64,000 bases of DNA. Source: an uncultured Haliea sp. (GTDB lineage Bacteria > Pseudomonadota > Gammaproteobacteria > Pseudomonadales > Halieaceae). Under the pieces are notes generated by a model. It saw nothing but the letters and a program-made list of their open reading frames with translations, was not told the DNA's origin and searched no databases. Below, in pieces: positions 28,718 through 40,598 of the stretch (position 1 is its first letter; each line of letters opens with the position of its first letter). The stretch is taken from positions 1 to 64,000 of the forward strand of contig CAJXWP010000007.1 in assembly GCA_913062625.1 (NCBI GenBank). Direction: 5' to 3'. A program made the position numbers and the translations under genes.

Positions 28718-28733
28718 TATAGTCAAAACTATA
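28718..28733. promoter_or_regulatory. Candidate TetR operator TATAGT-CAAA-ACTATA
   Basis: Perfect six-base inverted repeat with a four-base spacer, 20 bases before the TonB receptor start. Its right half runs into TATAAT (28730-28735), a consensus -10 box, so bound protein would block the promoter. Same motif as at 34797 and 38699. Confidence 0.7.
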
Positions 28734-28753: not shown

Positions 28754-31018
28754 ATGCGAATGAGATCCCCTACATTACTCTTGATTGCGCTCTTCTGCCT
28801 TGGAGCGACTGTTCACGCCAATGCCCAAGGTTCGAAACCGCTGATATTGGAAGAGATTATCGTCACGGCGCAGAAGCGCGTCGAGTCTTTGGAAGACACG
28901 CCGATCACTATTAATGTGGTCACCGGAGAGGCACTGAACGAATTCGCTATTTTCAGTTTCGATGACCTGTCTAACTTAATCGCCGGCCTCTCCATCAGCG
29001 GCTCAAATTTCGATACCGATATCGCAACACGCGGCTTGGGCACCAATCTTACTGCCCCTGTCTCGCCGCGCGTCACCACCTACATGGACGGAACATTTAT
29101 CGGCCAATCACGCAACTTATTTAGCGGCCTGTTCGACCTGCAGCAACTCGAGCTGTTGCGCGGCCCCCAGGGAACGCTCTATGGCAAAAGTTCCCCTGCT
29201 GGGGCAATAACAATACGCTCAGCAAACCCGAATCTAGAGCAAGTAGACGGCTTCATCAGGCAAAGCTTCAACGATCAAGACGGATCAAATACGCAGGTTG
29301 CAGCATCACTGCCGCTCATCAAGAATGAGCTGGGAGTGCGTATTTCTGGGCTTTACGCCAATAATGAGAACAGTGGTGTTTATAACCGCACTCTGGACAG
29401 AGACGTAGAAACGAAAACCAAGGCCTATCGTATTGTCATGCTGTGGGAGCCCACCAGCAATTTCGACGCACGCTTGTCGTGGCATCATATTAGGGATGAC
29501 GCTGATGCCGATCCCGTCGTGGAGGGGGGCGGGCTGGATTTTGATGACCGGATAGCACTCGCGGAGTTTGACTCAAGGTACAAGAACAAGGCTGAATTCC
29601 TGATTCTGGAAAGCAACTATACTTTTACCAACGATTGGGTAGCCACGTTCTCATACAGCTATCAGGACGCTGCTATTGACCGCTATTTCGATCAGGATGC
29701 GACCGAGGTGCAGGCAAGGCAGCAATACGTACCCTCGCCCACAACGGATAACATCTATGAAATGCGTCTGGCGTCTCAGGACAACGATGTCTGGAACTGG
29801 ATCGTGGGTGCCTACTACGGAGATGCTGATTCCGATACAGGCGTAGAAGCCATAACGTATGTGTTCGACGCCCGTATTCCAGGAACCTTGATACGTGCCG
29901 ACACTAGCTCGAACGCGTCACTGCAATCCGAAGACTGGGCGCTATTTTCACACAATGCGATAAACGTAAGCGAAAATGGGACCTTAATAGTTGGCCTGCG
30001 TTACAACGACGCGAAACGCGACACGAAACAGCCCTTCGTCACGAATGCCTATTTACTGACGGATACGGGGGAGATTCTCGTGCGAACGAGCGAGACAGAC
30101 GGTGTTCTCCCTGAAGCGCAGAATCTCTCAGACAATGCCATCACAGGTTCGTTGAAATACAAGTATAACGTCAATGACGACCTAATGGCCTATGCAGCTT
30201 TTGATACAGGCTGGCGGGACGGCTCAGCGAATATCGCCGGCAACCCACAACCGCCTGTATTTGGCGCCTTCGATTCAGAGGACAGTTATAACCTAGAACT
30301 CGGATTCAAGTGGCAGTTGTGGGGCGGTAGGGGACTGTTTAATGTCGCGGCGTATTACCAACTTTATGATCAGTTTCAGTATCAAGCTGCAGGTGTGTCA
30401 TACCGCGATGCTGATGGCACTGTCTCGCTGGCTGATCCGGTGATCAATGTAGACGAGGCTGAATCCTACGGCTTCGACAGCGACTTCGCTGTACTGATCA
30501 GTGAGCACTGGAATCTAACGACTTCCCTAAGCTACAACCAGACCGAGCTAACGGATGCCAAGAGTGTGCCCTGTTCCAACGGTGAACCTGTTAGTGTGCC
30601 ATTGTGGTCTTTCAACACCTGTGACCTGACCGGCGAGCCAGCCGGTGGTTTGCCGGAGTGGTCGGCGAATGTTGCCTCGGAGTACTGGGGTAGTGTCGAG
30701 GATATCAATAGTGACTGGTATCTGCGCGGCTTGCTTAACGCGGAGAGTGAATACTATTCACCCACCTTCCGTGAGGACCTGGACAGCTACGTCACCCTAG
30801 ATCTTTATCTGGGCCTGCGATCTGTCGACACCCGCTGGGATGTGAACGTCTGGGTAAAAAATATTGCAGATGAAAGCGCCAAGTTAAAGGACCGGGCGCT
30901 GCCGGATATACCCAACTATGCGGACGGCGTCATGATCTCGTCGCCCTATGTCGAGATCAGACGTCAGCTTGCACCGCGCACGATAGGCGTCACCTTTAAC
31001 TATAACTTTGGCTTATAA
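28754..31018 (+). CDS. TonB-dependent outer-membrane receptor
   Basis: A 754-residue receptor. Signal peptide MRMRSPTLLLIALFCLGATVHANAQ; TonB box LEEIIVTAQKR (about 32-42); plug with RGLGTNLTAPVSPRVTTYMDG and ELLRGPQGTLYGKSSPAGAITI; barrel through to GVTFNYNFGL. It is diverged from the receptor at 7843 but of the same iron-siderophore-receptor-like architecture that in marine bacteria often takes up organic substrates. The operator-like palindrome against its -10 box links it to the P450 operon at 31-35 kb, which makes uptake of the P450 substrate its likely job. Alternative: a ferric complex receptor, though no Fur-box-like site is seen. Confidence 0.92.
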   Translation: MRMRSPTLLLIALFCLGATVHANAQGSKPLILEEIIVTAQKRVESLEDTPITINVVTGEALNEFAIFSFDDLSNLIAGLSISGSNFDTDIATRGLGTNLTAPVSPRVTTYMDGTFIGQSRNLFSGLFDLQQLELLRGPQGTLYGKSSPAGAITIRSANPNLEQVDGFIRQSFNDQDGSNTQVAASLPLIKNELGVRISGLYANNENSGVYNRTLDRDVETKTKAYRIVMLWEPTSNFDARLSWHHIRDDADADPVVEGGGLDFDDRIALAEFDSRYKNKAEFLILESNYTFTNDWVATFSYSYQDAAIDRYFDQDATEVQARQQYVPSPTTDNIYEMRLASQDNDVWNWIVGAYYGDADSDTGVEAITYVFDARIPGTLIRADTSSNASLQSEDWALFSHNAINVSENGTLIVGLRYNDAKRDTKQPFVTNAYLLTDTGEILVRTSETDGVLPEAQNLSDNAITGSLKYKYNVNDDLMAYAAFDTGWRDGSANIAGNPQPPVFGAFDSEDSYNLELGFKWQLWGGRGLFNVAAYYQLYDQFQYQAAGVSYRDADGTVSLADPVINVDEAESYGFDSDFAVLISEHWNLTTSLSYNQTELTDAKSVPCSNGEPVSVPLWSFNTCDLTGEPAGGLPEWSANVASEYWGSVEDINSDWYLRGLLNAESEYYSPTFREDLDSYVTLDLYLGLRSVDTRWDVNVWVKNIADESAKLKDRALPDIPNYADGVMISSPYVEIRRQLAPRTIGVTFNYNFGL

Positions 31019-31125: not shown

Positions 31126-31602
31126 TCATTGCTTTGACGGATCTGTAGCCATCAGCGTCGACGCCTTGATACTGAACACCAGCTCATCATTTTGATTTAG
31201 GAGTTGTGTATTGTAGGTTACAATGCCACGGTCAGGCTTACTCTTCGAAAGTCTTGCCGCCTCTACAATAGACAAAGACCGAAGCGTATCACCGGCATAA
31301 ACAGGCCTATGCATGCGCATTTCATCAAAGCCCAGTCCGGCAATGACCTGCTGCACCACACCACTCTGCCAGCGCTGGCTGGTAATACAAAAAATAGAAA
31401 ATATATGAGCTGAACAGGCGGTAAGGCCGCCAAAAATAGAGGCGCTGGCGAATACTTCATCGATGTGCCAAGGCTGAGGGTCCCACGCCTGTGCAAACTC
31501 GATTATCGCCTGTGCCGTTACGGTATAACTCGCAGCCGGATGTTTTGCACCGACCACGAGATCGTCAAAATAAAAAGGCTGTCCCTGCTGGTCTGACAAC
31601 AT
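31126..31602 (-). CDS. MaoC-like hotdog dehydratase
   Basis: A 158-residue hotdog-fold protein of the (R)-specific enoyl-CoA hydratase/MaoC group. The hydratase motif region reads AIIEFAQAWDPQPWHIDEVFASASIFGGLTACSAH: Asp and His in the D-x-x-x-x-H pattern and the GGL turn. Further on, MRMHRPVYAGDTLRS corresponds to the second conserved block. Hydrates or dehydrates acyl-CoA in beta-oxidation-like steps. Last gene of the operon that begins with the NTF2-like gene at 34723; GAGG precedes its ATG and 16 bases separate it from the epimerase. Confidence 0.87.
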   Translation of the reverse strand: MLSDQQGQPFYFDDLVVGAKHPAASYTVTAQAIIEFAQAWDPQPWHIDEVFASASIFGGLTACSAHIFSIFCITSQRWQSGVVQQVIAGLGFDEMRMHRPVYAGDTLRSLSIVEAARLSKSKPDRGIVTYNTQLLNQNDELVFSIKASTLMATDPSKQ

Positions 31603-31618
31603 TTACAGCCTCTCCCGG

Positions 31619-32644
31619 TTACTCACTGACGGTAACCTTTGGACACTGACTCGCCTCCAAATGGCCGACATGAACCATCCATGTAATGGCGTCGGAAAAT
31701 GTCTGTTTGGTACTGCGTAAGGCAAGCTCACGCCGCCCGAGCTCATCGGTATTGTTGATATTGGGCCACAGCGTGGCATAACGCATAGTTTCCGCCGAAA
31801 TAGGCGAATCAATCGTCTTGAAGTGTCTAAGAAAATCCGTCGCTCGACCAACTAGGCGAAGCTTCCACCCCTGAGCAGACATACGCTGAAGCTGGCAACC
31901 CGACACCGCTTCAATGATGTCAGCGAGCTCGGTCCAGGTGCAGTAAACACCCGGCATCAGAAACCGTCCAGAGCCACCGCTTTGAACCAAAGAGCACACA
32001 AAAGCAGCAAGGTCACGCACATCGACATACTGCATACCACCATCACCGAAGATGCGAAAGCCATTCTCAATGCGATGTTTTAACGCTTTGAATGAATCTG
32101 AAAATCCGGGATCATCTGGGCCAATAACGCCACCGGGATAGACAATTGAAACAGGAGCACCCTGCGCCTGTAACTCGCGCAGATAGATTTCAGCCTCAAC
32201 CTTACTCTGTCCATAAGGTAAGTTTGATTTCGCCGGGGGCGCATCTGAAGTTACCTTGGAGGCATCGGGATTAAAGATCGCCGTGATACTGGATATACAC
32301 ACAATTCTCTCGATACCAATCTCTAGCGCACTGTCCACGACATGCTTTACACCGTCGACGTTGACTCGAAATAATTGCTCGATCGATCCTGTCTGCATCG
32401 GAGTACCTGCCGCCGCATGCACGACCGCATAACTATCCACCAGCGCCCTTTTTACTGACGCAATATCGGTAACGTCACCGACGACCATCTCAGGAATTCT
32501 CTCTCCCAACTGCCGATAGTAAGCTTCGGCTTTCTTGATGTCTCGCACCAGTAATCGTACCGCATGACCCGCAGCCATAAGCTGCCTGCAAACGTGCGAA
32601 CCTACAAAGCCGGTTCCACCGGTTATCAGTATCTTGGTCTCGAT
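31619..32644 (-). CDS. NAD-dependent epimerase/dehydratase with unusual start codon
   Basis: An extended SDR, about 341 residues. The first ATG (32576-32578) would cut off the cofactor loop, but the sequence before it, in frame and with no stop, reads ETKILITGGTGFVGSHVCRQL, an ideal Rossmann start with GGTGFVG. No ATG, GTG or TTG occurs between the upstream in-frame stop and this motif. The candidates are ATC at 32642-32644 or CTG at 32627-32629. The protein also has SSITAIFNPDAS and the catalytic YGQSKVEAE (Y-x-x-x-K), so it is enzymatically complete. The ferredoxin stop lies five bases before the ATC, consistent with translational coupling. Resembles 3-beta-hydroxysteroid dehydrogenase/dihydroflavonol reductase-like enzymes. 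Confidence 0.8.
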   Translation of the reverse strand: METKILITGGTGFVGSHVCRQLMAAGHAVRLLVRDIKKAEAYYRQLGERIPEMVVGDVTDIASVKRALVDSYAVVHAAAGTPMQTGSIEQLFRVNVDGVKHVVDSALEIGIERIVCISSITAIFNPDASKVTSDAPPAKSNLPYGQSKVEAEIYLRELQAQGAPVSIVYPGGVIGPDDPGFSDSFKALKHRIENGFRIFGDGGMQYVDVRDLAAFVCSLVQSGGSGRFLMPGVYCTWTELADIIEAVSGCQLQRMSAQGWKLRLVGRATDFLRHFKTIDSPISAETMRYATLWPNINNTDELGRRELALRSTKQTFSDAITWMVHVGHLEASQCPKVTVSE

Positions 32645-32649
32645 AGCGG

Positions 32650-32856
32650 TTAGTCTTCTAACACTGTAATGACATTATTAGGACAGTATTTAGCTGCTTT
32701 CATAACTTTTTCGCGTAGCTCCTGTGGCGGATTGTCTAGCAACACTCTAACCTGGGGGTAACCATCATCCTGATCAATCACATCAAACACCTCAGGCGCC
32801 TCGTCTAGACAGACACTATGCCCTTGGCACAGGGCCAAATCGATTTTTATCTTCAT
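32650..32856 (-). CDS. Single-cluster ferredoxin for the adjacent P450
   Basis: A 68-residue ferredoxin. The cluster motif is C-Q-G-H-S-V-C near the start and Y-C-P-N near the end: in place of the second cysteine there is His, the pattern of P450-linked 3Fe-4S (or His-ligated) ferredoxins in mycobacteria and Streptomyces. GGGAG seven bases before the ATG at 32856 supports this start; a longer reading overlaps the P450. It passes electrons from a reductase to the CYP51-like protein encoded just upstream. No ferredoxin reductase gene is in the window. Confidence 0.9.
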   Translation of the reverse strand: MKIKIDLALCQGHSVCLDEAPEVFDVIDQDDGYPQVRVLLDNPPQELREKVMKAAKYCPNNVITVLED

Positions 32857-32873
32857 CGACACTCTCCCACCCG

Positions 32874-34220
32874 CTACTTGCGCTTCGTATAGCGCAATCG
32901 ACAAGGGCCTGTGGGCTTTAACACAATCGCAGAGAGGTCGTCTTGATAAGTCTCATCGGGGTCAACCAGCTCGAATTCATAGCGCGGTAATAATGCGGCA
33001 AAAATTGCCTTCATCTGCATCATGGCGAATGCATTGCCAGCACACTTATGTGGACCGCCCCCGAAGGGGATATAAGCAAACAGCGTATCGGGCTTAGGGC
33101 GATACGGATCAAATTTCTCAGGATCTGGAAAATAATCCGTGTTGCGATGTGAACCGTAGATAGATATCGCCACCGTTTTACCGGCCTCAATTAATGTCCC
33201 GTTATACTCGATATCCTCGATTACCCTGCGCATCAGCAGGACTAGCGGAGGATGAAGGCGCAGAACCTCTTCAATAAAGGCCTCCAGTTTTGGAATTTCA
33301 CGCAGAGATTCGAGTGTAATCTCACTGCCACTTTTGAATAGGGCTTGCAGCTCCTCTGACACCTCTGCCGAGTACTCCTTCTGACGAGCCAACTCTGTCA
33401 GCGTCCAAGTCGCCGTACCGGAACTGGTGTGGTGTCCGGCAAACATAGTCGCGATCACCAACCCTGTGATCTCATTCTCCGTTAATTGACTACCGTCAGT
33501 GTAGGTGCCCGCCATGAAGGTTTCCAGCGCGTCACCGTACTCGATATGGCTACTCGCCCTGCGTTCAGCGATAATACCGCCAATTAACGCCTGCAAGCGC
33601 ACCAACGCCTTGTCACGGGCCTCAAAAACCGGCTGCTGCATATAAGGATCGACAAATGCAATGGCCTGTAGACCTTTTTCTAACGCGTGATAAAGCTCTC
33701 TGAACTCCTCAGTCATCCTGTCACGAAAATCTTTTCCCAGTAGGCAGTGTGTCGCGGTATGCAAAGTCAAACGTAAAAACTCATCTAAAAAGTCTAATTC
33801 ACCTTCATCACCCCAACTGGCCACCCAGTCTTCGACCTCCTGGGAAATAACCGTCGAATAGTTTTTCATATTTTGGTAACGCAGGGCGTCTACCTGAATT
33901 TTCAATTGCACTTTCATCTTGTCAGGCGGCGCGTCGAAGATCACCCCCTTGCCGAAAACAGGGACCGTTGCCTGATAGGCTGCTGCACGGCTAAGCTTAA
34001 GATCCAGTGTTTTAAAAAACGCTTCTTGAGCTTCAGGGCCACTCATCAGCACAGTCTGCTGACCACCCATATTGAACTCTGCCAGCTCTCCGCACTCCGC
34101 ATTACAACGCATCATAAAGCGCGCGAAGTTGGCGCCGAACTCGTCCATATGCCCACTGCTTGGTTTTTCACCGCTTACCTTGGGCGGTAATTTCAGCGAT
34201 GCAACGACGTTCTGACTCAC
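32874..34220 (-). CDS. Cytochrome P450 with CYP51 (sterol 14-demethylase) signatures
   Basis: A 448-residue P450. The haem loop is FGGGPHKCAG (386-395, Cys393). Two CYP51-specific motifs are present: the B'-helix segment Y82-QATVP-VFG-KGVIFD (family pattern YxxxxPxFGxGVxYD) and the I-helix AGHHTSSGTATWT (261-273). EEVLRLHPPL carries the ExxR pair, and the end matches the bacterial CYP51 of mycobacteria in style. The GTG at 34218-34220 overlaps the stop of the NTF2-like gene by four bases (GTGA), fixing the start; the longer reading to 34292 runs inside that gene. Canonical CYP51 removes the 14-alpha methyl of sterols. Here, in a TonB/TetR catabolic setting with no sterol synthesis genes, a sterol or triterpenoid substrate to be degraded or modified is the more likely role. 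Confidence 0.92.
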   Translation of the reverse strand: MSQNVVASLKLPPKVSGEKPSSGHMDEFGANFARFMMRCNAECGELAEFNMGGQQTVLMSGPEAQEAFFKTLDLKLSRAAAYQATVPVFGKGVIFDAPPDKMKVQLKIQVDALRYQNMKNYSTVISQEVEDWVASWGDEGELDFLDEFLRLTLHTATHCLLGKDFRDRMTEEFRELYHALEKGLQAIAFVDPYMQQPVFEARDKALVRLQALIGGIIAERRASSHIEYGDALETFMAGTYTDGSQLTENEITGLVIATMFAGHHTSSGTATWTLTELARQKEYSAEVSEELQALFKSGSEITLESLREIPKLEAFIEEVLRLHPPLVLLMRRVIEDIEYNGTLIEAGKTVAISIYGSHRNTDYFPDPEKFDPYRPKPDTLFAYIPFGGGPHKCAGNAFAMMQMKAIFAALLPRYEFELVDPDETYQDDLSAIVLKPTGPCRLRYTKRK

Positions 34221-34723
34221 GTCGGCGCTGCCTCTGACACCTGCTGGCTCGACATCACAGGCATCTCCTTCAGTACGCCGGTCTCCACGCATTCCTTTAT
34301 CAGATTGGTGATGTTGGTGTAGTCATACAGATCCAGTTGTTCACTCCACTGATAATTCCCTCCGTACTGAAAATAGGAGGCGCCTATGACCTTCATCGGG
34401 GTGCCATCTGCACGCACTGGCGCACCCGGAGGAGTCTGCCACCATATCGCCATAGCACTACCACGGGTTTCATCAATCACAATCCGCTCATAGGGATAGG
34501 TCCACCCCTTGTAAGGGTCCATCGCTGCACCGACGCAGGTCTCGCGGATGGTTTCGCGTCCTCTGAATTCGTACTTACCATTAGGCGTATCCCACCCATA
34601 AAGACAATCCTCGGAAAAGAAATCTGCCAAGTGGCGCCAATTGCCCTCCTTCTCCGACTTGTCGTTCACCGCCAGCCAGCGACGCATCATCTCTTCCATT
34701 TCTTCGCGATTATATGCAGACAT
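34217..34723 (-). CDS. NTF2/SnoaL-like protein, first gene of the CYP51 operon
   Basis: A 168-residue protein with the NTF2-like fold pattern: helical start (REEMEEMMRRWLAVNDKSEKEGNWRHLADFF), SEDCLYGWDTPNGKYEFRGRETIRE, and strands RIVIDETRGSAMAIWWQTPP and IGASYFQYGG. Ketosteroid-isomerase-type proteins share this fold, and in mycobacteria a gene of this type is found near cyp51 and its ferredoxin (recalled from established knowledge of the Rv0760c-Rv0764c region). Its promoter carries the palindromic operator at 34797 and a TATAAT box at 34793-34798. Confidence 0.82.
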   Translation of the reverse strand: MSAYNREEMEEMMRRWLAVNDKSEKEGNWRHLADFFSEDCLYGWDTPNGKYEFRGRETIRETCVGAAMDPYKGWTYPYERIVIDETRGSAMAIWWQTPPGAPVRADGTPMKVIGASYFQYGGNYQWSEQLDLYDYTNITNLIKECVETGVLKEMPVMSSQQVSEAAPT

Positions 34724-34796
34724 CTAAGCACCCCTCTAAATTCAATCTCGAAACTGTAAAAACCACCCTTTCAAAGTTACCATAGCCAAGTTATTA

Positions 34797-34812
34797 TATA
34801 GTTGCAACTATA
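34797..34812. promoter_or_regulatory. Candidate TetR operator TATAGT-TGCA-ACTATA
   Basis: A perfect sixteen-base palindrome in the 107-base divergent region between the NTF2-like/CYP51 operon and the LLM gene. On the minus strand TATAAT (34793-34798) overlaps its edge, and on the plus strand TATAAA (34809-34814) does, so one bound dimer could silence both directions. Confidence 0.75.
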
Positions 34813-34830
34813 AATAAGAAGGAAGACCAC

Positions 34831-35694
34831 ATGAAGTTCTGGCAGTCACTGGCCTTCGTGGAAATGGACCAAATGGTCGAACTCGCGACCTTTTGCGAAG
34901 AGCTTGGCTTTTACGGTGTTTCCTATGGCGACCACCTAATAACAACTAAGGACCAAGTCGATGAATATCTCTACCAGGATAGCGGTAACATTTTGTGGAA
35001 CCCTGAGACGCACTGGCCAGATCCCTGGGTCATTACGGCGGCACTTGCCCAAGCAACGACGCGCTTACATTTTTTGTCCACCATTTACATACTGCCATTG
35101 CGGGAACCACTGATTGCGGCAAAAGCGCTGTCCACCGCCGTATTTATGTCGCAGGAAAGAGTCACACTCGGGGCCGGCGTGGGATGGCAAAAGGCAGAAT
35201 TTGAAATGGCCGGACAGGACTTCCACACCCGCGGAAAACGCGCAGATGAAATGTTGGAGATCATTCCCCAGCTTCTGTCAGGCGAGATGACCGAATACCA
35301 CGGCACCTACTACGACATCCCCCCAGTCAAAATGTCGCCCGGCATCAGAAAACCATTGCCTATCATGATCGGGGGCTACGCACCCGCAGCAATGCGCAGA
35401 GCCTGTCGTTTCGATGGCTGGATGGCGACCTCACACGAAGAGACTGAAATCTACCCTCTGCTTGAGACGCTCAGCGACATCCGCAAGGAACAGGGCACGG
35501 CTAATAGACCTTTCGATGTCTGGACAGGCGTTAAAAATCCTGGCGACGGGACTCATGAGCGACTCGCCACAGCAGGCGTGACCATGGTCAACGGCTGCAA
35601 TTTCCTGAATGAGAATGGGCGCACCGTGTTATCGAGCATCGATGAAAAGAAAAAGAGAATTGAGATATTTGCACGGCAGTTCCTGCAAAATTAG
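34831..35694 (+). CDS. LLM class flavin-dependent oxidoreductase
   Basis: A 287-residue luciferase-like protein. Landmarks: ELATFCEELGFYGVSYGDHLITTKD, TRLHFLSTIYILPLREPLIAAKALSTAVFMSQERVTLGAGVGWQKAEFEMAGQDFHTRGKRADEMLEI (the classical F420/FMN LLM core) and KPLPIMIGGYAPAAMRRACRFDGWM. The form GVGWQKAEFEM...FHTRGKRADE is the TIGR03619-like subgroup typical of F420-linked mycobacterial enzymes. AAGGA precedes the ATG. It shares the operator at 34797 with the CYP51 operon, so it belongs to the same pathway, perhaps a Baeyer-Villiger-type or reductive step. Confidence 0.88.
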   Translation: MKFWQSLAFVEMDQMVELATFCEELGFYGVSYGDHLITTKDQVDEYLYQDSGNILWNPETHWPDPWVITAALAQATTRLHFLSTIYILPLREPLIAAKALSTAVFMSQERVTLGAGVGWQKAEFEMAGQDFHTRGKRADEMLEIIPQLLSGEMTEYHGTYYDIPPVKMSPGIRKPLPIMIGGYAPAAMRRACRFDGWMATSHEETEIYPLLETLSDIRKEQGTANRPFDVWTGVKNPGDGTHERLATAGVTMVNGCNFLNENGRTVLSSIDEKKKRIEIFARQFLQN

Positions 35695-35751: not shown

Positions 35752-37290
35752 CTAGTGTTTGTCTGGTATTGCCACCTGAATTCCACCGACTGCAGGCATA
35801 ACGGTTAGGTTTTTCGGTAACAGTAAGTCTATAAAGGGTTTGAGCGGACTGACTGCCGAGGTCGTGGCATCACCGATACTGCTCATCAACGTGCCATCTC
35901 GCAATACCGCTGTAATACCGCTTGAATCACCCGGCAAACTGACAACGTCCACCATCGCCTCACCCGTTTTCAAGTCGACAGCGGCAACGACAGAACGCAC
36001 TGGCACAGTGATATTCGTCATTGGAATTTGATACCCGTACACCACGGGAACCAGCACGGCATCGCGAGTGACAGTAGGGTTACCGTTACCTGTGGCGACC
36101 GGGTCACCCAAAAACAGCGAGACGGGCAACTGTTGGTGTGCCAAGCGGGAAAAGTCACTCTCCCACAGAATAGTTCCCTGAGGGTCGACCGCAACGAGGG
36201 CCGGGGCATACGCTTGCAGTGCATAGATAACGCCATCGCCACCCACCGCAGCGGCCCCTGCCGTGGCGCTAGTTTTGACCCTCCACACGATGGCACCGCT
36301 GACGGCATCGATACTGTATAACCAGCCTTCTTCATCGCTGACATAGACCCGGTCCTCCTCGGGAGACAACGCCGGACTGGAGCCACTTCCCAAACCAATA
36401 TCCGTGACAAATAACTCCTCGACTAACACGCCTGTATCGGATGAACTCAAATCTAGCGCATAAAGAGACCCGAACCCCTTCTCTACACTGCTGCCTACCA
36501 CATAAACACGACCGCTCTGGGAGACAGCGGGTGTGTTGGCAGATCGCATACTACCGCCAAAGATCAACTGCCAAGCCCATTCTCTGAAATCAGGATCCAT
36601 AAAATGATTGGCAAAAACGCTGTCCGGCATGCTCACCGTTTTCGCATAGGGCGGCAGCACACCAGGCAACCGATACCCCTGATTAACCACCGCACCCGTG
36701 GTCCGATCCACGACCACAACGTCTCCAAAATTCGTGACTCCGAGTAAATGACCCTCTCGCGTGAATACCGCAGTGGTGAAGGCATTGACCGAGTGTGTTC
36801 CCGCGGCCATCCAGTCGCCAGGCTGTATAGCAGGCAATGCAATTTTCCATTTCACCGCGCCATCAGGGGAAAAAGCAAACAACTGATTGCAGTCACTGAC
36901 GAACAGGTCGCCGGCCTCATCCACTATCGGACTAGACAAAAATGCACAGGGGTCAACCCCCTCATCTGCGCTTTGCCACGGATCAGACTGCCAGAGCAAT
37001 TGACCGTCTATGGAAAACGCATGCAAATTACTGTGGCCTTTAGTCATGCCGGTGGTCACGTAAATCTGTCTGCCATCTGGACTCGTTGTGGGTGCCGTTA
37101 GCACGGTAGCGCCGGCCAGTGCTTGCCAGATCCTATAATCTGCCGGCACTATATCGACATCTACATAGCGTCGATTACCCGAGTCTTGATGCAGCGTTGA
37201 CCAGCCCCCTGCAGAATAGTTATCGGCCGCCATAGCTACTGAACCAGTCAGTGCTGCCATCGCCGCACAGAATAAGGCAATACGTTTCAT
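35752..37290 (-). CDS. Periplasmic PQQ-like beta-propeller protein
   Basis: A 512-residue secreted protein. Signal peptide MKRIALFCAAMAALTGSVAMAAD. The body is a run of about seven or eight blades with the PQQ-repeat pattern G-x-(L/I)-x-A-x-D-x-x-(T/S)-G-x-x-x-W, for example LYSIDAVSGAIVWRVKTS, LVAVDPQGTILWESDF, VVVVDRTTGAVV and AAVDLKTGEAMVDV. The residues of true quinoprotein alcohol dehydrogenases (the Cys-Cys ring, Asp-Tyr-Asp) are not seen, so it is more likely a binding scaffold than a dehydrogenase. It lies between the LLM gene and the unknown protein gene; such propellers recur in sphingomonad and marine catabolic clusters. Confidence 0.78.
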   Translation of the reverse strand: MKRIALFCAAMAALTGSVAMAADNYSAGGWSTLHQDSGNRRYVDVDIVPADYRIWQALAGATVLTAPTTSPDGRQIYVTTGMTKGHSNLHAFSIDGQLLWQSDPWQSADEGVDPCAFLSSPIVDEAGDLFVSDCNQLFAFSPDGAVKWKIALPAIQPGDWMAAGTHSVNAFTTAVFTREGHLLGVTNFGDVVVVDRTTGAVVNQGYRLPGVLPPYAKTVSMPDSVFANHFMDPDFREWAWQLIFGGSMRSANTPAVSQSGRVYVVGSSVEKGFGSLYALDLSSSDTGVLVEELFVTDIGLGSGSSPALSPEEDRVYVSDEEGWLYSIDAVSGAIVWRVKTSATAGAAAVGGDGVIYALQAYAPALVAVDPQGTILWESDFSRLAHQQLPVSLFLGDPVATGNGNPTVTRDAVLVPVVYGYQIPMTNITVPVRSVVAAVDLKTGEAMVDVVSLPGDSSGITAVLRDGTLMSSIGDATTSAVSPLKPFIDLLLPKNLTVMPAVGGIQVAIPDKH

Positions 37291-37379: not shown

Positions 37380-38633
37380 TTACAGCTGCAGCAATTGAAT
37401 ATGGTCCTGCAGTTTAGTTTGATACAAGACTGTACCTTTCGCGATTTGAACCGACAACGTTTCCTCTGCACAAGCGCCGCTTCCGTCGATAATAATCTCC
37501 CACGCTAGAGAGCTCTTCTTACTTGCAACGACCTGTGCTCGAACGTCTACTCCTCTTACAATCCCTTCCAACCCACCGATCATCCCTCGTGCCAACAAAG
37601 CGTGCCAGCCGTAGGGCAGCTCCTCGCCAGACGCAGGGCAGTCCAACAGCTCGAACAGTGCTCGTGTGTCGTCTAGTCGCGTAAGCTGAATCGACCAATA
37701 CTCACTAGGCTGAAACGCTGGATGCACTTGCAACACTGCAATAACATCGTCAATGCCATCACCGTCACAACCCAGCCATATTTTCAATCGCTCACTGACC
37801 ACCCAACCACTCCCCGCCATCTGGAACTCAGCGACAGTCATTGCGGCGTCCTCGCCATAGCGTTCAGCAACTGCGTACATCAGTCCTACCACTAGCAAAT
37901 GCACTTGTACTGCCAGTTCACTGCACACGACAGCCAAAGCCGCGTCAGAAAGTTGCTCGAGCTGCAATTGTTCGAATACCGGACCGTCGTAATAGGCCAT
38001 ACCCCCGGACTGAGTGCTCTTTGGACGCGAGATCGCGATGTTAGCGAGACGGGTGCGGCTCATCACCCGAGTAATTTCAGGCTCTATCACTTTTTCTGAA
38101 GCAGGATCAATAGACACCGTCCACTCACAATGCGTCTCTCTATCAGCGGGCACACGCGGCGGCCGGTGGACTGGTACAATGCGAGCGCGCGCATTCGTCG
38201 CTATCGCTGTGGCATTAAAGGTCGGATCTTCGATATCGTGGCACATTACCTTCACCGCGTCCGGGCCGCGCGGTTCAGTTTCCAACAGTGCGCCACAGCT
38301 GTTAAGCCAGAAACGGCCACTATCGGCCGACGAAACCTCAAAGTGCACATCGAAATACTGGTGTGTAAAACCACACTCCAACTGCAAGCCCTTAAAAATA
38401 GTTGCAACGTCGGTGCCTCCAGCAAAGCCCATCGCTTTTTGCATGCGGCGTGTATAAACAGGGCTAGCCCCCATCCAGTTGGCGATAGCGACCTCCTTAT
38501 ACGCTTCATCACCATGATTGATGCGCAAAGCAGCATAACCGGTGCGGCTATTGAACTGCGCACACAGCATATACTCGCGACCGAGCTGGGCAAGTTGCAG
38601 TCGACTAAATCCCGCTAGTTCTTTTTTAATCAA
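37380..38633 (-). CDS. Conserved-looking protein of unknown family
   Basis: A 417-residue cytoplasmic protein with no signal peptide or membrane helix. I do not recognise it. The N-terminal half has REYMLCAQFNSRTGYAALRI, FDVHFEVSSADSGRFWLNSCGALLETEPRG and VKVMCHDIEDPTFNATAIATN; the middle has PVHRPPRVPADRETHCEWTVSID. The C-terminal half is rich in hydrophobic helices and may be a ligand-binding domain. The TTG at 38633 is preceded by GGGAG at six bases; a TTG at 38648 is the alternative. It is divergent from the TetR gene at 38775 with the operator palindrome between, so it is probably under that repressor and part of the same pathway. Confidence 0.65.
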   Translation of the reverse strand: MIKKELAGFSRLQLAQLGREYMLCAQFNSRTGYAALRINHGDEAYKEVAIANWMGASPVYTRRMQKAMGFAGGTDVATIFKGLQLECGFTHQYFDVHFEVSSADSGRFWLNSCGALLETEPRGPDAVKVMCHDIEDPTFNATAIATNARARIVPVHRPPRVPADRETHCEWTVSIDPASEKVIEPEITRVMSRTRLANIAISRPKSTQSGGMAYYDGPVFEQLQLEQLSDAALAVVCSELAVQVHLLVVGLMYAVAERYGEDAAMTVAEFQMAGSGWVVSERLKIWLGCDGDGIDDVIAVLQVHPAFQPSEYWSIQLTRLDDTRALFELLDCPASGEELPYGWHALLARGMIGGLEGIVRGVDVRAQVVASKKSSLAWEIIIDGSGACAEETLSVQIAKGTVLYQTKLQDHIQLLQL

Positions 38634-38698
38634 TGTCTGCTCCCGCAAAGGTGTAAGAACGGATGAGTTACATGTCAGTCAATATATATCCATTGTTT

Positions 38699-38714
38699 TA
38701 TAGTTACCACTATT
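38699..38714. promoter_or_regulatory. Candidate TetR operator TATAGT-TACC-ACTATT
   Basis: Matches TATAGT-N4-ACTATA with one mismatch. It lies in the 141-base divergent region between the tetR gene and the unknown protein gene. TTGTTT (38693-38698) and TATAAT (38716-38721) spaced by 17 bases make a plausible tetR promoter with the palindrome inside the spacer, and TATAAA on the minus strand would serve the other gene. This is the arrangement expected of an autoregulating repressor. Confidence 0.65.
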
Positions 38715-38774: not shown

Positions 38775-39368
38775 ATGAAGCCGACCAAACGGGAAGTCAC
38801 GCGAGAAAAAGTCATCAATGCGGCTATAGACTGCATCTATCGCGATGGGTTCAATGCCGCTCATACCAATCGCATAGCTGAGGAAGCTGGCGTCAGCTGG
38901 GGCGTACTGCAGTACCACTTTGGCGACAAAGACGGCTTGCTGCAGGCAGTAATCGATTATATCTTTGATGAATTCGCCACCACATTGGAATCAACATCAC
39001 TGCAGGGCGACGATCTTCAGCAGCGGGTTAGACAGCTGATAGATGTCGTCTGGACACTGGTTAGCAAGAAAGAGTATCGGGTAAGCATCGCCATACTGCG
39101 CAATGCTGGAAAAGATGATGGCTCCACTATTAACGGACAGAAACAGCTGTCACGATGGGCAAAAAAAACCTCTAACCTGTGGGACGATCTTTTTGAAGAC
39201 AACCTTCAGGAGCCACGACAGAGTGACATTGCTCGTCACCTACTGTTTGCGACGCTGCGCGGGATGGTCGATGAAATCAACCCCCGCAATATTAAGACAA
39301 AAAAATCGATTAAACTGGAATGCGACGCTCTGAGTGAAGCGATAACCTTCCTGCTCAGTAGACATTAA
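38775..39368 (+). CDS. TetR family transcriptional regulator, likely pathway repressor
   Basis: A 197-residue TetR-type regulator. DNA-binding domain at the N-terminus: REVTREKVINAAIDCIYRDGFNAAHTNRIAEEAGVSWGVLQYHFGDKDGLLQAV, with the recognition helix around AGVSWGVLQYHFGDK. The remainder is an all-helical ligand-binding domain. It ends three bases before the convergent P450 gene. Because a TATAGT palindrome lies in its own promoter and others are at the receptor and P450 promoters, it is the simplest candidate for the local repressor, released by a pathway substrate. Its paralogue at 13047 shares the recognition helix and cannot be excluded as the binder. Confidence 0.9.
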   Translation: MKPTKREVTREKVINAAIDCIYRDGFNAAHTNRIAEEAGVSWGVLQYHFGDKDGLLQAVIDYIFDEFATTLESTSLQGDDLQQRVRQLIDVVWTLVSKKEYRVSIAILRNAGKDDGSTINGQKQLSRWAKKTSNLWDDLFEDNLQEPRQSDIARHLLFATLRGMVDEINPRNIKTKKSIKLECDALSEAITFLLSRH

Positions 39369-39371
39369 GCA

Positions 39372-40598
39372 TCACACCACATCAAATTCAATCGGCATTT
39401 TTTTGATGCCATGAATAAAACTCGAACGCAGCCAGTTAACCTCTCCCGTTAAGCGAGGATTGCGAATGCGCTTTAGAATTTCCTCAAAAACCACCCTGAG
39501 TTCTAGTCGTGCCAAGTGAGAACCCATACAAAAGTGCTCACCCACACCAAACGCGCGGTGGCTATTTTTTACATCTTCGCGCTGCGCCCGCGTGATATCG
39601 AAGATGTCGCCGTCACTGAATACGTCCTCATCAGCATTAACTGCAGCATAATATAAATTGATCTTGTCACCCTTCTTAATCAATTGACCACTCACTTCTA
39701 CGTCCTGCATAGCCGTGCGCCTAAAACACATAACAGCGGGGTCAAAGCGCAAGACTTCTTCGATGGCACCTTCGAGTAAATCGGGATTATCCACCAACTG
39801 TTGATATTGCTCAGGATGCTCCATTAACAGGCGCATGCCTTGAGATGTGACCGTGCGCGTTGTTTCATTGCCCGCTACCATCAGCATCAAGAAAAAATGA
39901 CAAAATTCTTCGTCAGTAAGTGGCTCATCCTCCACTGTGCCATTAAGCAGTACATGGACAATGTCATCTTGTGGATTATCGCGATGTGCTTCCGCTAATT
40001 CATGAGCGAGGAAAAACATCTCCGCCATCGCTGTTTCGCCATCTTCCTGCGTCGTAGTGAGCTCCGGATCCGACATTCCTAGCATGGTATTGGTCAACTC
40101 AAACAGATGTTGGCGCCTGTCGATAGGCACCCCCATCAGTTCGCAAATAGCGATAAGTGGCAACTCCGCCGCGATGTCTTCTACAAATTCGCACTCGCCC
40201 CCTACAATCGCTCGGGTGACAATGTCGCGAGCGACCTGCCGAAAACGTGGCTCATAGCCGTCCACCTTTTTCGGTGTAAATGCATTGCGCACGAGGCGCC
40301 GGTACTTCAAGTGCTGTGGCGGATCCATATTAATCAATTGCTGACGCATCAGAATCACCCTCTCCGGATCAGATTCGAATGGTAAAGCACTCTTCTCCGC
40401 AGATGAAAAAAGAAGCGGGCTCTTGGAAATAAAATCTAAATCCTTCTGTTTAGTTACCGCCCAAAAGCCAGTACTCGTCTCGGGGTCGTCGTGCCAGTAC
40501 AACGGCTCTTCATTGCGCAGGTACTTAAAAACCTCTCGCGGCACTCCACCGGTGTAGGTTTCAGGAGCAGTGAGATCGAAATGTGGACACCCAGCCAT
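39372..40598 (-). CDS. Cytochrome P450, CYP125/CYP142-like
   Basis: A 408-residue soluble P450. I-helix AGNETT (242-247), ExxR at 281-284 (EEVLRFDPAVMCFRRT), haem loop FGVGEHFCMG with Cys357. AGNETTRT, FDPAVMCFRRTAMQDVEVSGQLIKKGD and the ending WLRSSFIHGIKKMPIEF recall CYP125/CYP142/CYP124 of mycobacteria, which oxidise the side chain of cholesterol or methyl-branched lipids at the terminal carbon. Its promoter holds a weak copy of the TATAGT operator (40654-40669). Together with the CYP51-like P450 this suggests oxidation of a steroid- or terpenoid-like molecule; that is an inference from resemblance by eye. Confidence 0.9.
   Translation of the reverse strand: MAGCPHFDLTAPETYTGGVPREVFKYLRNEEPLYWHDDPETSTGFWAVTKQKDLDFISKSPLLFSSAEKSALPFESDPERVILMRQQLINMDPPQHLKYRRLVRNAFTPKKVDGYEPRFRQVARDIVTRAIVGGECEFVEDIAAELPLIAICELMGVPIDRRQHLFELTNTMLGMSDPELTTTQEDGETAMAEMFFLAHELAEAHRDNPQDDIVHVLLNGTVEDEPLTDEEFCHFFLMLMVAGNETTRTVTSQGMRLLMEHPEQYQQLVDNPDLLEGAIEEVLRFDPAVMCFRRTAMQDVEVSGQLIKKGDKINLYYAAVNADEDVFSDGDIFDITRAQREDVKNSHRAFGVGEHFCMGSHLARLELRVVFEEILKRIRNPRLTGEVNWLRSSFIHGIKKMPIEFDVV

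Follow-up and report, generated by a model that had tools for sequence, protein, structure and literature searches.

To our knowledge, the function of CYP51 in bacteria without sterol synthesis, chief among them M. tuberculosis, has been a question for two decades. The best comparison for the locus described here is the Cyp51-ferredoxin-8,14-Bsr cassette (Bsr, bacterial sterol reductase) of Methylococcaceae, Mycobacteriales, myxobacteria and some alpha- and gammaproteobacteria (Lee, Giner and Welander, 2026, PMC13277303). The nearest characterised P450 is CYP51fx of Methylococcus capsulatus (PDB 6mi0, 6mcw), a P450-ferredoxin fusion used in sterol synthesis. The orphan CYP51 of mycobacteria and other actinobacteria (M. 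tuberculosis Rv0764c-Rv0763c region) is accompanied by an adjacent ferredoxin and an NTF2-like gene without sterol synthesis. The M. tuberculosis enzyme demethylates lanosterol and obtusifoliol in vitro, and conversion of lanosterol to a C19 8(14)-steroid by a Mycobacterium is cited in PMC13277303. The 9,10-seco route of steroid degradation is found in Halieaceae and Spongiibacteraceae (Holert, 2018, PMC5790920); as far as we know, neither CYP51 nor 14-methyl sterols are dealt with there.

The window analysed here is a stretch of 64,000 nucleotides from an uncultured Haliea sp. (Halieaceae). It shares with the published cassette the same three co-localised proteins, the same catalytic residues and the same CYP51 clade, but differs in having no oxidosqualene cyclase (OSC) and in carrying an SDR, a MaoC protein, an LLM protein, u422, a TonB receptor and a TetR protein under one operator. 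As Bsr, CYP51 and ferredoxin are present and no cyclase was found, the operon appears to be the known cassette without sterol synthesis. New here is a 16-bp operator that joins the TonB receptor, the CYP51 operon with the LLM gene, and the TetR/u422 pair. Altogether, the module itself is known, while its regulated and seemingly catabolic setting is new. A sequence-only reading knew of no description of uptake and breakdown of an external sterol or triterpenoid in a gammaproteobacterium, which is too broad, since both steroid degradation in Halieaceae (PMC5790920) and gammaproteobacterial CYP51s (PMC7998510, PMC13277303) are known. The features of the locus are as follows.

28718..28733: operator TATAGTCAAAACTATA, before the TonB receptor gene
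28754..31018, plus strand: TonB-dependent outer-membrane receptor (Pfam Plug and TonB beta-barrel)
31126..31602, minus strand: MaoC-type hotdog hydratase, final operon gene (Pfam MaoC_dehydratas)
31619..32635, minus strand: extended SDR, 3beta-HSD/HpnA/SdmB-like, start codon uncertain (Pfam Epimerase, 3Beta_HSD)
32650..32856, minus strand: single-cluster ferredoxin, 68 aa, His in cluster motif, presumed electron donor (Pfam Fer4_15/Fer4_13)
32874..34220, minus strand: CYP51-family cytochrome P450, 448 aa (identity, motifs, tree)
34217..34723, minus strand: putative 8,14-Bsr, NTF2 fold, first operon gene (homology, residues, fold)
34797..34812: operator TATAGTTGCAACTATA, a perfect palindrome, in the gap that separates the Bsr-CYP51 operon from the LLM gene
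34831..35694, plus strand: luciferase-like (LLM) flavin or F420 oxidoreductase, transcribed away from the operon (TIGR03619)
35752..37290, minus strand: exported PQQ/BamB-type beta-propeller, probably within the u422 transcript (Pfam PQQ_2)
37380..38648, minus strand: u422, conserved 422-aa protein of no named family, predicted tandem V4R/TRAPP-Bet3/H-NOX-like ligand-binding fold
38699..38714: operator TATAGTTACCACTATT, in the u422-TetR intergenic region
38775..39368, plus strand: TetR-family repressor next to the operator, presumed autoregulated regulator (Pfam TetR_N)
39372..40598: CYP125-like P450 (PDB matches)

The P450 and its operon partners

The P450 shows the roughly 40% or more identity to members that marks the CYP51 family, with 46.9% to the M. 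capsulatus and 42.6% to the M. tuberculosis enzyme; identity to a eukaryotic CYP51 was 34.4%. The best 50 matches in a PDB search were all CYP51s (top E 8.5e-126), a similarity far above chance. The family motifs were found as YQATVPVFGKGVIFD in the B'-helix (pattern Y....P.FG..V.[FY]D), AGHHTSSGT in the I-helix (AG.HTS), EVLR for ExxR and FGGGPHKCAG in the heme Cys loop; the first two are the CYP51 hallmarks to which the sequence-only reading had drawn attention. A quick tree that included very distant P450s did not settle the deep branching order. A second tree without them, in which only eukaryotic and OSC-linked CYP51s served as outgroup, resolved it and placed the P450 within CYP51, in a clade of 39 rows together with the M. 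capsulatus and M. tuberculosis enzymes (support 100/99.7). The tree supports membership of the ferredoxin-linked bacterial CYP51 clade; by sequence the protein is a CYP51, for which 14alpha-demethylation is predicted. The B'-helix contacts are A84, T85 and V86, where the nearest characterised CYP51s have F or I, M and T. The GTG start of the gene overlaps the stop of the NTF2-like gene. An ATG at 34292 was rejected as an over-extension, and the earlier numbering of Y82 and P87 matches the 448-aa form.

The NTF2-like gene is very probably an 8,14-Bsr, predicted to act directly after CYP51 (PMC13277303), and this makes the sterol reading of the locus much stronger. Its product was 40.6% and 43.9% identical (E 4e-35 and 7e-38) to the NTF2 proteins of two OSC-bearing genomes that are labelled methanotroph-like from gene content. 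In an alignment with these two proteins (L173 and L174), of which L173 has exactly the published Bsr residue numbers (PMC13277303), window residues F36, Y42, Y76, Y78, D131 and D134 align with the published Y37, Y43, Y78, Y80, D133 and D136; Y43 and D133 are the catalytic positions and 37 and 78 call for aromatic residues, and the variant Y37F is reported to be active (PMC13277303). A Bsr profile retrieved the NTF2 gene of genome G637, where CYP51fx, Bsr and OSC lie in a row, and another in the OSC-bearing G525. No relative was found in a PDB sequence search, and the AF2 model (pLDDT 87) matched NTF2/KSI-like PDB structures (E about 1e-6, TM 0.5). Unlike its methanotroph homologues, the window protein has no C-terminal stretch of about 30 residues. 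The lead to the Bsr name came from the literature.

All genes listed in the sequence-only reading (NTF2-like, P450, ferredoxin, epimerase, MaoC and LLM) were found, and the operon is conserved across several families. Among 19 named relatives (L085-L103) the ferredoxin and the SDR accompany CYP51 in all, Bsr in 18 and the LLM gene in 16; the MaoC gene is present in about half of the relatives. The ferredoxin, in whose motif CQGHSVC...CPN a His replaces the second Cys, directly adjoins the CYP51 gene in all 19 and is fused to CYP51 in other lineages. The SDR scored 109 bits on the NCBIfam HpnA model and 71 bits on SdmB, both far below cut-off, and identification as SdmB was ruled out (71 of 600 bits). 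Its reading frame extends about 20 codons upstream of the listed ORF, the usual start codon being lost in the assembly. The LLM protein reached 162.7 bits on TIGR03619 (cut-off 166.9).

The resemblance to the mycobacterial cyp51 region that had been pointed out earlier extends to Nocardioides, Actinomadura and Gordonia, where CYP51, ferredoxin and NTF2-like gene are also linked and where u422, LLM and another P450 gene also lie nearby. Unlike the mycobacterial orphan CYP51, the window enzyme belongs to a separate clade, and the mycobacterial region has no TonB receptor and another gene order.

A palindrome shared by three promoters

The 16-bp palindrome occurs three times in the 3.07-Mb genome, each time at this locus and in a promoter; the search pattern was widened once the three sites had been seen. 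The site between the Bsr-CYP51 operon and the LLM gene was found again upstream of Bsr in most relatives, the TonB site precedes the TonB gene in L069 as well, and the u422/TetR site is conserved in L065 and L085-L090. In the distant relatives L068 and L074-L076 the TetR gene adjoins Bsr. The three shared palindromes delimit a small putative TetR regulon that would import and process a compound from outside, most likely a 14-methyl sterol, and TetR is the presumed binder of the sites.

The TonB receptor and the CYP125-like P450 reported earlier near CYP51 were both confirmed by Pfam and PDB matches. The latter has CYP125, a steroid C26 monooxygenase, as its nearest characterised relative by sequence (CYP125MRCA 407 bits, M. 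tuberculosis CYP125 258 bits). It lies near CYP51 as claimed but outside the shared operator: the genome search gave no palindrome at this gene or at the amidohydrolase gene, and both were dropped as regulon members together with the nitronate-monooxygenase gene. The main catabolic genes, KstD and KshA, were likewise found without the operator.

Proposed function and its alternatives

Loss or retention of sterol biosynthesis offers one explanation of the locus, as CYP51 and Bsr are enzymes of methanotroph sterol synthesis (PMC13277303). In the Halieaceae genome (97% complete), however, the PF13243 profile gave no match to an oxidosqualene or squalene-hopene cyclase, in line with the lack of sterol synthesis genes noted earlier. 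Leaving aside one genus, which has an OSC directly behind its own CYP51, the order includes 37 further genomes with CYP51, and none of them gave a cyclase either. Two weak PF08491 matches of the squalene-epoxidase type (29 bits) were found, and E. coli gives one too. The SdmB model fails as above and the best candidate for the C4-demethylase SdmA was ruled out (74 bits, cut-off 600), which leaves the processing of a 4,4-dimethyl sterol unexplained. Sterol synthesis by this organism was ruled out on these grounds, and a biosynthetic remnant is nearly refuted.

The genome, which comes from the same bacterial family as the system of Holert (2018, PMC5790920), has a KshA-type gene (KshA_C E 4e-56) and, adjacent to it, a KstD-like gene (577 bits, under the cut-off of 789). 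The KshA_C profile, which picks up further Rieske oxygenases as well (one of them with a score on SdmA too), was found in 36 of the 38 cyclase-free genomes with CYP51 vs 80 of 353 others, a comparison that ignores shared ancestry. The operon is also carried by L088, recorded as Halioglobus isolate BC5_1. Our literature search found no paper on a BC5_1 cholesterol proteome; a Halieaceae sponge isolate, BC51, grew on cholesterol.

We consider it fairly probable that TetR controls the locus as a regulon through which exogenous 14alpha-methyl sterols of the lanosterol, cycloartenol or obtusifoliol type are taken up and processed. The TonB receptor would help to import the substrate. CYP51, with the ferredoxin as donor, would oxidise the 14alpha-methyl group three times and release it to give a delta8,14-diene, which the NTF2-fold Bsr would reduce and rearrange to an 8(14)-ene. 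The 3-hydroxyl, C4 or the side chain may be attacked by the SDR, MaoC and LLM enzymes, and the product would pass into the ordinary steroid pathway that the genome probably has (KstD/KshA, 9,10-seco), a possible link to carbon use. TetR would leave the palindromes once inducer is present. The uptake and processing of an external sterol, as first proposed, agrees with the operator shared by TonB receptor, CYP51 operon and TetR; the choice of breakdown over remodelling, and with it a catabolic role for CYP51, is where we infer rather than observe.

Remodelling would mean that foreign 14-methyl sterols are imported and converted to 8(14)-sterols that are kept in membranes or detoxified. The core cassette is indeed the membrane-sterol set of methanotrophs (PMC13277303; L174) and the KstD and KshA genes lie outside the regulon, but almost all of the host lineage and of the genomes with the operon are steroid degraders positive for KshA. 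The accessory genes (MaoC, SDR and LLM) belong to degradative types, and they gave no matches near the methanotroph cassette. We think remodelling unlikely. The P450 could also be a CYP51 derivative oxidising another terpenoid or steroid (a triterpenoid, a bile-type or a side-chain-degraded steroid), with Bsr kept for a related double-bond shift. Contacts A84, T85 and V86 are altered clade-wide, and a sister 'solo' group has lost the Bsr linkage and changed its B' and I-helix motifs, so functional drift does occur in this lineage. Against this, the His-Thr motif of the I-helix is intact, the Glu of the LEKG segment is conserved and Bsr keeps every catalytic residue that was examined, as would suit 14-demethylation yielding a delta8,14-diene; a changed substrate seems to us improbable.

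A switchable gene set that joins CYP51, its ferredoxin and a likely Bsr with an uptake receptor suggests that a marine bacterium which makes no sterols imports and processes those of other organisms, and predicts a bacterial sink for the 14-methyl sterols of algae and fungi. In marine steroid degraders, the locus brings an orphan-type CYP51 together with 8,14-Bsr, a receptor of the outer membrane and a repressor whose operator can be defined. This makes the role of CYP51 directly testable: once the inducer is named, the physiological substrate follows. It also hints at the job of orphan CYP51s in bacteria such as Mycobacterium.

The u422 protein and the wider proposal

u422 gave no match in Pfam, NCBIfam or PDB sequences. 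Its model (pLDDT 91) resembles the V4R/TRAPP/H-NOX fold with a best Z of 7.8 and a Foldseek E of 0.08, values under safe limits, at which the link is no more than suggestive. A wider proposal, which we put forward tentatively and hold at somewhat below even chances, is that of an inducible 14-methyl-sterol utilisation locus: the orphan CYP51 and 8,14-Bsr would strip the 14-methyl group so that lanosterol- or cycloartenol-type sterols enter steroid catabolism, u422 would be a new sterol-binding or sensing protein, and CYP51 would do the same job in Mycobacterium and Nocardioides. The gene for the beta-propeller adjoins u422 in L085, L086 and L088. In both Gammaproteobacteria and Actinobacteria u422 is linked to CYP51, as is the LLM gene in many Actinobacteria, so that these two genes are CYP51 partners common to both groups.

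Family placement of the P450

The genes named in the sequence-only reading were all found in the sequence, and its assignment of the P450 to the CYP51 type agrees with PDB matches, identities and motifs.

34220-32874, minus strand: CYP51-family P450, 448 aa; its GTG start overlaps the stop codon of the NTF2-like gene

The best 50 PDB matches of this protein were CYP51s without exception, with Methylococcus capsulatus CYP51 at the top (E 8.5e-126) and M. tuberculosis CYP51 also among the leading ones. The identity was 46.9% to M. capsulatus CYP51, 42.6% to M. tuberculosis CYP51 and 34.4% to a eukaryotic CYP51. The B'-helix motif, I-helix motif, ExxR and heme loop were found intact. A careful tree of 46 CYP51s placed the protein inside a 39-row CYP51 clade (support 100/99.7) with M. 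capsulatus, M. tuberculosis, actinobacterial and CYP51-ferredoxin fusion proteins, while the CYP51s of genus g85 and of eukaryotes fell outside. The subclade of the window protein comprises proteins 54-98% identical, the closest (98%) being the P450 of L085 from the Haliea/Halioglobus MAG group, and a 'solo' sister group at about 50% which has lost the NTF2 partner. With Haliea/Halioglobus MAGs as the closest named relatives, the host is assigned to Halieaceae. The residue bounding the C4 side is A, V or G in the window clade vs F, I or L in other CYP51s, a difference that would be expected to make space for 4,4-dimethyl sterols.

The 'solo' proteins (L077-L081; second P450 in L072 and L102) have a ferredoxin but no Bsr (8,14-sterol reductase) gene and carry altered B'-helix (VQYGA) and I-helix (HHTSAN) motifs; their function has likely changed. 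CYP51-ferredoxin fusions of about 550-585 aa, sister to the M. capsulatus fusion, occur (L046-L057, L083, L084) in genomes without cyclase, most with an adjoining Bsr gene.

The operon and a putative 8,14-sterol reductase

The 8,14-sterol reductase of M. capsulatus, which acts on the direct CYP51 product, belongs to the NTF2 family (Lee, Giner and Welander 2026, PMC13277303). It requires Y43 and D133, and positions Y37 and Y78 must remain aromatic; homologues taken from M. tuberculosis and from a myxobacterium are also active. Further homologues are described in gamma- and alphaproteobacteria, as is co-localisation with CYP51 and ferredoxin (PMC13277303). Searched with a profile of the window NTF2 family, two further genomes of the class, each with cyclase genes, gave strong matches: G637, with the order CYP51-ferredoxin fusion, NTF2 gene, oxidosqualene cyclase (OSC), and G525, whose protein has Y37, Y43, Y78, Y80, D133 and D136 in numbering identical to that published. 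The window equivalents are F36, Y42, Y76, Y78, D131 and D134, and across 37 sequences these residues were invariant except F36 (Y or F). The predicted model has an NTF2/KSI-type fold. Based on published function, homology, residues and fold, we assign the gene at 34217-34723 as a putative 8,14-Bsr. The host genome has a second, distant Bsr-like NTF2 gene (58 bits; L007 7826-8281, G000:C13:35807-36274) that adjoins another P450.

By analogy with tested relatives, an imported sterol would lose its 14alpha-methyl group via CYP51, fed by ferredoxin, and Bsr would convert the delta8,14-diene to the 8(14)-ene. No true SdmA (C4 demethylation) was found in the host genome.

Conservation was counted in 19 named relatives (L085-L103), where short contigs reduce the figures. 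The P450 was followed by ferredoxin and SDR in 19/19 and preceded by the NTF2-like gene in 18/19; LLM was nearby in 16/19, TetR present in about 11, u422 (a conserved 422-aa protein) in about 10 and MaoC in about 8. Nocardioides, Actinomadura and Gordonia share CYP51-ferredoxin-NTF2-like with the window, mostly with another P450 and often with u422 and LLM; Gordonia L156 has CYP51, ferredoxin, NTF2-like and u422 in a single row. The SDR start codon (32620-32640, minus strand) is GAG here vs GTG in the 98% relative L085, reflecting a true loss, another start or an assembly error.

A candidate operator and its regulon

A palindrome, TATAGTTGCAACTATA, lies between the CYP51 operon and the LLM gene. 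With three mismatches allowed the window holds three sites vs 0.17 expected: one upstream of the TonB receptor, one in front of both the operon and LLM, and one in the gap separating u422 from TetR. Since the pattern was broadened to fit all three sites, the site count alone is no clean test. The broadened pattern, WATAGTNNNNACTATW, did not occur elsewhere in the host genome; a control pattern occurred once. The palindrome was found again at equivalent positions in relatives whose P450 is as little as 55% identical, among them L069, where it lies upstream of a TonB gene, and L074-L076, where it separates Bsr from TetR. This recurrence is independent support from sequence for the palindrome as operator, and the TetR protein would bind the sites. 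The CYP125-like P450, amidohydrolase and nitronate-monooxygenase genes, where no palindrome site was found, were ruled out as regulon members.

The u422 protein had no family match and no PDB sequence match. Its predicted model (pLDDT 91) resembles two V4R/TRAPP-Bet3/H-NOX-type ligand-binding domains, with a best Z of 7.8 that is under the safe threshold. Among 53 genomes tested, u422 was confined to carriers of the window-type CYP51 or its 'solo' sister (11), being absent from nine Halieaceae without CYP51, from the fusion type and from sterol makers. Speculatively, it may bind or sense sterols.

Sterol synthesis and the catabolic setting

The sequence-only reading saw no sterol synthesis gene. 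In the whole host genome (3.07 Mb, 97% complete, about 18 P450 genes) the C-terminal domain of oxidosqualene/squalene-hopene cyclases had no match, and squalene-epoxidase-type matches were weak, E. coli yielding one as well. Within the order, 42 of 391 genomes had a P450 match at E <= 1e-60. In four of these, all genus g85, a cyclase gene directly follows a P450 with 35-38% identity, and these four resemble genuine sterol producers; the remaining 38 lack cyclase. KshA_C was found in 36/38 cyclase-less CYP51 genomes vs 80/353 others, counts not adjusted for shared ancestry. In the host genome a KshA-type oxygenase adjoins a KstD-like gene (L164 9687-12480, G000:C59); the Rieske protein there matches KshA_C and, weakly, SdmA. 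The Halieaceae sponge isolate BC51 degrades cholesterol (Holert et al. 2018, PMC5790920), and the CYP51 operon is present in L088, the record of Halioglobus isolate BC5_1, which is presumably that strain. OM60 is among predicted steroid degraders (Bergstrand et al. 2016, PMC4810484).

The proposal that sterol uptake and breakdown here was undescribed holds in part. CYP51 was already known in Gammaproteobacteria (PMC7998510), as were the CYP51-ferredoxin-Bsr set and Halieaceae steroid degradation. Modification of foreign lanosterol by Mycobacterium was proposed earlier (PMC13277303), and the in vivo role of Mycobacterium CYP51 is stated as unknown (PMC6469627). New are the regulon and its candidate operator, the presence of an uptake receptor, a set of accessory genes common to two phyla, and the difference from sterol makers.

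In one genus of the same order CYP51 and OSC lie within 7 kb (L058-L061; G334, G158, G106, G261), a span that in G158 (G158:C35:1978-8807) also takes in an SdmA-like gene (402 bits). No Bsr match lies beside these genes, the I-helix reads AGQHT and the CYP51 is more eukaryote-like. These are probably undescribed sterol-producing Gammaproteobacteria.
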